A DNA stretch of 64,000 bases from Methanosarcina barkeri str. Wiesmoor (GTDB lineage Archaea; Halobacteriota; Methanosarcinia; Methanosarcinales; Methanosarcinaceae): assembly GCF_000969985.1 (NCBI RefSeq), contig NZ_CP009526.1, forward strand, positions 4,216,001 through 4,280,000. Direction: 5' to 3'. Below the pieces are notes generated by a model. That model had not been told where the DNA came from, ran no database searches, and worked only from the letters and a program-made list of their open reading frames with translations. Made by a program: the position numbers and the translations under genes. This document shows positions 2,844-5,144 of the stretch, in pieces; the stretch's first letter is position 1; each line of letters begins with the position of its first letter.

Positions 2844-3152
2844 AAAGGGCTGTAACCTGAAAAAATAGCAATCAGATTTTTATTTATCTATAGAAGTTTA
2901 ATATTTCCTGGACTTTAATTTTCCCCGGATTTCCCAGAATAAAGTCCGATAGTGTCTTCCCTCTTTTTCCCTATTATTAAGTGGAATGCGTATGTACTCC
3001 AAAGAGAAGTTTGTTTCAGCGAAGTTAGAAAATGCAGTTGGGAAACCAAAATATGAGGATTATATGGAAATATTATGGAGATACATAATTGGCATGTCCA
3101 TAATCAATCGATATATTTCTATATTGAAAGATCATCCTTAGTTTCCTATACA
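2844..3152. other. Intergenic region after mutL
   Basis: AT-rich sequence with no convincing ORF. Pyrimidine-rich stretches after the mutL stop (2870-2980) could end transcription. Nothing else is recognised before the TATA box of the RNA candidate that follows. Confidence 0.5.
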
Positions 3153-3161
3153 TTTATATAA
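3153..3161 (+). promoter_or_regulatory. TATA box for the putative small RNA
   Basis: TTTATATAA is a strong archaeal TATA match. It predicts a start point about 25 bases downstream, near 3180-3185, exactly where a GC-richer structured segment begins. No ORF with a ribosome binding site follows at that distance. Confidence 0.5.
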
Positions 3162-3179
3162 TAGAACTTAAGATGTAGT

Positions 3180-3372
3180 AGTGTGCCAGGCAAGTGCCGG
3201 CATCTGAAACAGGCATCATTCCTAAGGCTATTTTTCACACACCAACCCCAACACCCCCCAAGAAGGAACGAAACCCCCAATCGTTCTAGACTCCAGGATA
3301 AAACCCCATTTCCAAAACAAATCCCCACTTCTGGAATGATGCCACCTCTTTTCTATCTTTTTTTATACTTTT
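3180..3372 (+). ncRNA. Candidate structured small RNA with multiple C-rich loops
   Basis: The segment stands out from its AT-rich surroundings. A perfect 11-base inverted repeat (GGCATCATTCC at 3212-3222, GGAATGATGCC at 3333-3343) would close the molecule. Inside is a hairpin GAACGA/TCGTTC (3266-3271, 3281-3286) with loop AACCCCCAA. Further unpaired C-runs occur at 3244-3259, 3303-3307 and 3323-3326. A TATA box lies upstream, and T-rich sequence (3348-3370) after the closing stem could terminate it. C-rich loops are complementary to Shine-Dalgarno (GGAGG) sequences, so a translation-blocking sRNA is a reasonable inference. No named family was recognised. The cobalamin genes follow, but no B12 riboswitch motif was seen. 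Confidence 0.42.
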
Positions 3373-3467
3373 GATGTCAGTTACTTTTATCTATTCAGTA
3401 AAACCAGAAAATAAGGCAAAGCTTATCCAAAACCAATCGGGTTTTTTCCGATTTACATATCAATACA

Positions 3468-3476
3468 TTTATAATA
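3468..3476 (+). promoter_or_regulatory. TATA box of cbiD
   Basis: TTTATAATA lies about 25-30 bases before the cbiD ATG at 3499, and no Shine-Dalgarno sequence precedes that ATG. The spacing suggests a leaderless or nearly leaderless transcript. Confidence 0.5.
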
Positions 3477-3498
3477 AAAAACCTCCGAGTATTCTTCC

Positions 3499-4518
3499 AT
3501 GATAGATCCTGTTAACAATTTCAAGATCCCTGAAGACTGGATTGCCCGCACAGGGCTTCCCAGGGAAGAACTTGAAACAAAAGTAGCATCCGGGATGCTT
3601 GTGGTCCTGAGTGACGGGTCTATCCTCAAACGAGGATACACTACAGGAACCACAGCAAGTGCTGCTGCAAAAGCCGCAGTCCTTTCCCTTAAGAAAACGG
3701 TTGATAACGTATCCGTCCCGACGCCTGTGGGACTGAGAGCCCGGCTTGAGGTCAGTGAAGCCTCGCAGGGACGCGCAGTTGTGAAAAAGATCCAAAACGA
3801 CCACGAATCCGATATTACCCGGGGGCTTGATTTTGTGGGAGAAGCCAGGGAAGCTGAGGGAATCCGAGTTTTAGGAGGAAAAGGCATAGGAATTGTCAGA
3901 AGGGACGGGTTACAGGTTCCGAAAGGCCAGCCAGCTATTAATCCGAAACCAATGGAACAAATAAAGGCCGCAGTGCAGGAAGCTGTAGAAGAACTGAGCC
4001 TGAGAGGAGCCGAGGTTACAATATCAATTCCAGATGGAGAGAGGATCGGAAAAGAAACCCTGAACAGCAGGATAGGAGTTGAAGGCGGAATTTCTGTGCT
4101 TGGGAGCACGGGTTTTGTTGAGCCCTGGAACGACCATCTGGGTGAGACAAGAGGGGACCTTATCCGCTGCACGGACAAAGTAGTCCTAACTACAGGCCGT
4201 ATAGGAATGCGTTATTCACATATGCTTTTTCCCGATTATACAATTGTTATGATCGGAAGCAGAATTTCAGAAGGACTGGATTATGCTTCAGGCGATGTAG
4301 TTATCTGTGGGCTTCCTGGTCTTGTTCTCAAATGGGGAAACCCGGATATGCTTAAAGACGGTGAATATGCAACAGTTGTCGAGATGCTTGAAAAAGATCC
4401 TGAACATCCTCGTCTAAAAGAAGCTTTTGAAATGGCAATCGAGAAAGGTAAAGGTGCAAGAATTGTAGTAATCGACAGGGATGGTTCTGTCTTGATGGAC
4501 AGTAAGAATGAGAGTTAA
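3499..4518 (+). CDS. cbiD: Cobalt-precorrin-5B (C1)-methyltransferase CbiD
   Basis: A 339-residue CbiD, which methylates C1 of the corrin ring in the anaerobic (cobalt-early) cobalamin pathway. The family signature [16 protein letters not shown] begins near residue 45, and the conserved [15 protein letters not shown] and [19 protein letters not shown] segments follow. Length is normal for the family. The ATG lies close behind a TATA box and has no visible ribosome binding site, so leaderless translation is likely. cbiE follows after 38 bases on the same strand, forming a two-gene cobalamin operon. Methanogens need corrinoids for methyl transfer, so high demand is expected. Confidence 0.95.
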
Positions 4519-4556
4519 TTACAGGTTTAATTTACAGGAAAAGGGGAAGAAAAATA

Positions 4557-5144
4557 ATGATCGTTGTAGGAGTCGGGGTCGGGCCCGGAATGCTCACGGA
4601 AGAAGGAATAAAGGCTATAAAGAAAGCTTCTGTGGTTTATGGTGCAAAAAGAGCCATTGAGATTGCCCAGGAATATATTACATGTGAAGCAAAACCGATC
4701 AAGGACTATAAATCACTTCATCTCTTGCCAGCCGATGCAGTCATCCTGTCTACAGGCGATCCCATGTTTTCAGGGCTCGGGAAATTCGCAAGGGAGAAAG
4801 ACACAGTTATACCTGGGATTTCTTCAATGCAGGTGGCCTGTGCGCGTACAAAAGTGAACCTGACCAACCTCTGCGCAATCACAGCCCACGGCAGGGACTC
4901 AGAACCTGCAAAAGCCGAGTTGATCCGGGAGTTAAGGAATGGAAGAAATATCTTCCTGCTGCCGGAAGAAAACTTTGGATCGCTTGAGGTCGCAGAAATT
5001 CTAAAAGAGCTGGGTATTGAAGCTGAACTTTATACCTGCGAAAACCTTGGCTATCCTGAAGAAAGAATTGCAAAAGGTACTCCTGAAAATCCACCGGTTC
5101 CGGAAACGATTCTTTACGGGCTGCTTGTCGTACAAAAAAGGTAA
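4557..5144 (+). CDS. cbiE: Cobalt-precorrin-7 (C5)-methyltransferase CbiE
   Basis: A 195-residue tetrapyrrole methylase. The N-terminus has the glycine-rich GVGVGPGMLTEEGIKAIKKA signature, followed by LSTGDPMFSGLGKF and PGISSMQVACARTKV, typical of SAM-dependent corrin methylases of the CbiE type. Length matches stand-alone CbiE rather than the CbiE-CbiT fusion (CobL); no CbiT follows in the window. The gene sits directly behind cbiD with an AGGGGAAG-type ribosome binding site, so co-expression is expected. Confidence 0.92.
   Translation: MIVVGVGVGPGMLTEEGIKAIKKASVVYGAKRAIEIAQEYITCEAKPIKDYKSLHLLPADAVILSTGDPMFSGLGKFAREKDTVIPGISSMQVACARTKVNLTNLCAITAHGRDSEPAKAELIRELRNGRNIFLLPEENFGSLEVAEILKELGIEAELYTCENLGYPEERIAKGTPENPPVPETILYGLLVVQKR

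Follow-up and report, generated by a model that had tools for sequence, protein, structure and literature searches.

Studies of archaeal small RNAs cover only a handful of cases, and families defined by covariation are few. In bacteria, the C-rich small RNAs RsaE, FsrA and RNAIII bind G-rich Shine-Dalgarno sequences through C-runs in unpaired loops, and CrcZ is a CA-rich RNA that titrates a protein. In Methanosarcina mazei, sRNA162 (191 nt) is located between MM2441 and MM2442, with homologues reported from three species only. The locus of sRNA154 lies between MM3337 and MM3338, a conserved and a hypothetical protein, and has the NrpR operator GGTA-N6-TACC. It is reported to be conserved in Methanosarcina and to have a loop with an anti-ribosome-binding-site sequence (Prasse et al. 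2017). sRNA41 is reported to mask ribosome binding sites in the ACDS operons (Buddeweg et al. 2018).

Locus and extent of the RNA gene

We analysed a stretch of 64,000 nt from Methanosarcina barkeri str. Wiesmoor, hereafter the window, and compared one of its intergenic regions with other genomes. We are highly confident that this region encodes a non-coding RNA that is structured and conserved in Methanosarcina, with a transcript predicted from the genome. In the window, the gene order is mutL, small RNA, cbiD-cbiE, all on the same strand. The RNA (3180..3365, plus strand, both ends predicted) corresponds to a block conserved in 30 of the 31 Methanosarcina genomes and in three genomes of a sister genus.

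The TATA box TTTATATAAT (3153-3162, plus strand), already recognized in the initial annotation, is kept across the homologues. Together with an upstream TTTCCTATA element, part of which may be a BRE, it forms a promoter (3140..3162, plus strand) conserved in practically all of them. The spacing from the TATA box to the first hairpin appears compatible with an archaeal promoter. Given the position of the TATA box and a covarying hairpin at about 3183-3203, the 5' end likely falls at about 3180-3184. The 3' end would be located inside a T-rich, CTCTTTTCTAT-like region (3348..3370, plus strand), which trails the closing stem in nearly all homologues and is a probable termination zone; the T-rich end noted initially is thus present from 3348 on. 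The RNA would be about 165-185 nt long and transcribed independently.

The initial annotation had reported no ORF. Chance ORFs do exist on both strands, at 3183-3374 on the plus strand (63 codons from GTG) and at 3146-3328 on the minus strand, but none is conserved: across the homologues there is no conserved start, frame or peptide, and indels break every frame. Chance ORFs of 30-60 codons in single species, the many small proteins of M. mazei and the recent proposal that sRNA154 is dual-function could point to a small mRNA, or a dual-function RNA, for a small protein. This is hardly credible here, since nothing coding is conserved, and two of the homologues (L029 and L030) are without any 15-codon ORF on the plus strand. 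A coding RNA was rejected for the lack of a conserved ORF.

Secondary structure and covariation

Three helices are found in the alignment of 33 homologues. The closing stem consists of a 5' arm GGCATCATTCC (3212..3222, plus strand) and a 3' arm GGAATGATGCC (3333..3343, plus strand), the perfect 11-base inverted repeat of the initial annotation. It is kept in all 33 homologues, with 99.7% of the alignment cells paired. Two sister-genus genomes (L060 and L061) show a double change from U-A to C-G, U-G intermediates occur in L059 and L013, and 7 of the 11 pairs never vary in the 33-sequence alignment. The second helix, also described initially, is an internal hairpin (3266..3286, plus strand) of GAACGA (3266-3271) and TCGTTC (3281-3286) around the C5 loop AACCCCCAA, seen both in the sequence and by covariation. 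In other species it switches as a unit to GAATGG/CCATTC, with two pairs doubly changed. To these we add a covarying 5' hairpin (3183..3203, plus strand; consensus GTGYCAG/CTGRCAT), which has 97.8% of its cells paired in the 33 sequences and in which pair 15/30 is seen as U-A, U-G and C-G.

Taken together, the 24 pairs of the structure have standard base pairs in 98.1% of the cells of the 33 sequences, as compared to 30-44% after a shift of the partner by 1-3 columns. Two-sided changes were counted in 38 cells, against 12 in shuffles, and four pairs have double changes. Because shuffles of related sequences overstate the significance of covariation, we built the case on the tree, where the changes in pair type are few, yet present in all three helices. 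The structure therefore passed the covariance analysis that had been proposed initially as a check, with compensatory changes in each helix. Of 200 dinucleotide shuffles, 199 fold less stably than the element of this genome (z -3.1), and the mean z over the 33 homologues is -3.9. Its retention in 30 of the 31 Methanosarcina genomes and the compensatory changes argue against a chance structure. An alternative helix competing with the closing stem (TTCCAG/CTGGAA) was rejected, as it did not covary.

The architecture shown by conservation and covariation is that of a framed open loop. The 5' hairpin and the 11-bp closing stem frame a loop of about 110 nt, rich in C and poor in G, which holds the small internal hairpin.

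Distribution, origin and relation to cbiD

By DNA search, the element was found in 30 of the 31 Methanosarcina genomes, including 24 of the 24 good-quality ones, with one copy per genome; second matches listed in some genomes are fragments of the same locus. A covariance model recovered 33 of the 112 genomes of the family, namely the same 30 and three of the four genomes of the sister genus. Among the 186 genomes of the order, the model found nothing beyond these two genera, under stricter filters that weak relatives could escape. The single Methanosarcina and the single sister-genus genome without the element also lack cbiD in their assemblies, and these two cases are therefore probably assembly gaps. 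Wherever the contig is long enough, the element is always positioned between mutL and cbiD. In a collection of named genomes, the matches were to Methanosarcina species and to two metagenome-assembled genomes labelled 'Euryarchaeota archaeon'; plasmid records gave no match. No match for the element was found in Rfam at gathering or relaxed thresholds, cobalamin riboswitch included.

Two further genera of the family have mutL next to cbiD, separated by a gap of about 60 nt with a TATA-like element before cbiD, and the RNA is absent from this gap. It follows that the RNA either arose between mutL and cbiD in the ancestor shared by Methanosarcina and the sister genus, or disappeared from other lineages. 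The RNA occurs throughout the methanogen genus that has been studied most, and its origin can be dated by its absence from the neighbouring genera.

The conserved TATA box ahead of the RNA is distinct, by sequence comparison, from the promoter of cbiD. The latter (3460..3499, plus strand; TATA TTTATAATA at 3468-3476) is a near-invariant block outside the RNA, which stops at the cbiD start codon. This block, TCAATACATTTATAATAAAAAACCTCCGAGTATTCTTCCATG, was found in 29 loci, where 103-708 nt separate it from the RNA. As the promoter runs right up to the start codon, cbiD is probably leaderless.

As it always precedes cbiD and shares its strand, the RNA could be imagined as a 5' leader or riboswitch-like element of the cbiDE cobalamin operon. 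We consider this very improbable, because cbiD has its own near-invariant promoter reaching the start codon, the spacer between the RNA and cbiD varies from 103 to 708 nt, genera with adjacent mutL and cbiD but without the RNA still have the cbiD promoter, and Rfam gave no riboswitch match. A leader or riboswitch was thus rejected on the separate promoters and the comparison with other genera. What the initial annotation had proposed as a possible small RNA is better described as a separate gene, conserved in the genus, with covarying stems and predicted transcription.

C-runs and the invariant unpaired segment

The element of this genome has five runs of at least four C between the closing arms, predicted to be unpaired with a mean probability of 0.95, in agreement with the single-stranded C-runs of the initial annotation. 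The loop also holds a module CCCCATTTCC (3304..3313, plus strand), and a C-run (3323..3326, plus strand) lies ahead of the 3' arm of the closing stem. In 28 of the 30 Methanosarcina homologues, there are four to seven runs of at least three C between the closing arms, and C is about four times as frequent as G. Such C-runs of the homologues are predicted to be unpaired with a mean of 0.86. The module occurs in tandem duplicates in several species; L004, L015 and L024 carry one to two extra copies of CCCCATTTCC or a similar C-rich module (CCCC-ATTTCC type). These duplications offer a natural setting in which to ask how the effect of a small RNA depends on the number of its binding sites.

The conservation of stems and C-runs in relatives, on which the initial proposal depended, was found for the closing stem in all homologues and for the C-runs in 28 of 30, but not in L029 and L030. 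These two most divergent Methanosarcina homologues are left with one C-run each and retain the closing stem and the motif UCACACACCAACCC; L029 has also lost the internal hairpin. We see this as a partial failure of the C-run idea, which shifts weight to an invariant segment.

This nearly invariant single-stranded segment, AAGGCTATTTTTCACACACCAACCCC (3224..3249, plus strand), was not part of the initial description. It is the most conserved unpaired stretch of the alignment, predicted to be unpaired, and a candidate for the working part of the RNA. The near-zero variation in this segment and in much of the closing stem is uninformative on pairing, and points toward a sequence-specific function. 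In the L028 homologue, part of the CACACACCAACC segment, invariant elsewhere, is gone, which makes this homologue a natural case in which to test what the segment does. Against 16S and 23S rRNA, the invariant segment had matches of 7 nt, the same as for shuffles, and long sites complementary to GGTTGGTGTGTG in six genomes were not in excess over a reversed control pattern. The archaeal Sm-like protein may bind the RNA at the UAUUUUUC stretch.

A protein partner is also at the centre of the main rival to the masking of ribosome binding sites. The RNA could act as a sponge or scaffold, in the manner of 6S RNA or CrcZ, and bind a protein through the closing stem and the UAUUUUUCACACACCAACCC segment, with the C-runs being secondary. 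The stem and the unpaired segment are constrained beyond the needs of pairing, as the seven invariant pairs of the stem illustrate, and L029 and L030 dropped C-runs while holding the motif. However, the C-rich bias in 28 of the 30 genomes and the duplication of C-modules speak against this role, for which no protein partner is known. We regard it as possible, though on balance unlikely.

Possible targets and mode of action

Pairing was evaluated on 238 genes drawn from the window, the two cdh regions and sampled stretches of the genome. The first ATG of each long ORF was simply taken as its gene start, so that some starts will be wrong. In this sample, the pairing of C-rich strands was stronger at translation starts than in upstream or coding windows, a preference that would be expected of any C-rich strand; shuffled strands of the same composition paired equally well or better at the translation starts. 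The pairing of C-runs with Shine-Dalgarno sequences, as proposed initially, therefore exceeded the control regions but not the shuffled strands, and did not yield a target beyond chance. GGGG was present in 18 of the 238 translation-start regions (7.6%), compared to 1-5 of 238 (0.4-2%) in control windows, so that C-runs could select a subset of mRNAs. The lack of a significant mRNA target in the 238-gene sample also fits the protein-binding role.

The best single predicted target, mmp8 (methanogenesis marker 8, TIGR03275, L104 8180-8211), is within chance, since 12.7% of shuffled strands match its pairing energy. Its ribosome binding site GGAAGGUGUGUUU contains GGTGTGT, complementary to ACACACC, and about two thirds of the orthologues retain this motif within differing flanking sequences. 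Many Methanosarcina have a second mmp8 gene without GGTGTGT, often close by.

The ribosome binding site of cbiE, GGAAAAGGGG (window 4537-4557), is complementary to the module CCCCATTTCC at 9 of 10 positions. cbiE is the second gene of the adjacent operon, and its GGGG is kept in most Methanosarcina and missing in the sister genus. With a GGGG base rate of 7.6%, this pairing is suggestive at most. GGGG ribosome binding sites were not enriched among the cobalamin genes, with about one gene in the second cbi cluster. Apart from the suggestive GGGG site of cbiE, the tie to the cobalamin genes is one of neighbourhood alone.

For the ACDS operons, the comparison across species covered cdhD only. One of the cdhD copies here paired at -21.8 kcal/mol, against about -11 to -19 kcal/mol elsewhere; the pairing did not covary and did not follow the change in the C-module. 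With strong pairing in one copy of one genome only, cdhD found no support as a conserved target. Short cdhD-like fragments, some with stop codons, were observed apart from the two full ACDS operons (G000:C2:3339288-3339560), and similar ones in G001, G003, G009 and G024. As candidate targets, cbiE, mmp8 and cdhD are leads only, and the RNA segments CCCCAUUUCC and CACACACC are candidate pairing sites for cbiE and mmp8.

The reading we lean towards, with modest confidence, is an independently transcribed, trans-acting small RNA of Methanosarcina and one sister genus that would mask ribosome binding sites. Several mRNAs would be bound by the unpaired CACACACCAACCCC segment and the C-runs at their G-rich ribosome binding sites (GGUG, GGGG, GGAGG), and pairing there would repress translation, as with sRNA154 and sRNA41 in M. 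mazei. A wider version sees a genus-defining regulator, which arose once in the mutL-cbiD gap, varies in its number of C-modules and co-represses mRNAs whose ribosome binding site is of the GGGG or GGUGUG kind, cbiE and mmp8 perhaps among them; this is speculative and rather doubtful. Targets are directly testable, because the RNA is universal in the genus and at a fixed locus, and genetics are available in M. mazei and M. acetivorans.

Comparison with known small RNAs

CrcZ resembles the RNA described here in being a long, A/C-rich, unpaired RNA with repeated modules. It differs in that the two share no homology, with just a chance-level match on the other strand, and that the RNA here has no known protein partner. 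RsaE, FsrA and RNAIII share with it the unpaired C-runs complementary to G-rich ribosome binding sites. There is no detectable kinship with these in sequence or structure, as no Rfam match was found; the RNA here has a larger loop and one long stem, and its pairing is predicted.

Within the genus, sRNA162 is likewise an intergenic regulator of similar size, whereas its locus (MM2441/MM2442) and its homologues in three species only set it apart. sRNA154 differs by its neighbours, which here are mutL and cbiD, and on reading the sequence no GGTA motif of the NrpR operator (GGTA-N6-TACC) was visible just upstream of the RNA. Identity with sRNA154 or sRNA162 is ruled out by locus.

The RNA could already have been described, as sRNA41 or as a different RNA of the M. 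mazei list published in 2009, which would be compatible with masking. sRNA41 is reported to cover several ribosome binding sites within polycistronic mRNAs, as the RNA here could, and there is good pairing with the ribosome binding site of one cdhD copy in this genome. That pairing is neither conserved nor tracks the change in the C-module. On balance, we find such an earlier description distinctly unlikely.

As a model for the masking of ribosome binding sites, the M. mazei RNAs are nonetheless close. The test on ACDS (cdhD only) was not supportive of a shared target, but sRNA41 is an intergenic, trans-acting RNA of the same genus, and is reported to mask several ribosome binding sites, which the RNA here could do as well. 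Both sRNA154 and this RNA are conserved in Methanosarcina, and the loop of sRNA154 is reported to have an anti-ribosome-binding-site sequence. The anatomy of the RNA and the precedent of sRNA154 and sRNA41 in the genus make masking in trans the best-supported mechanism.
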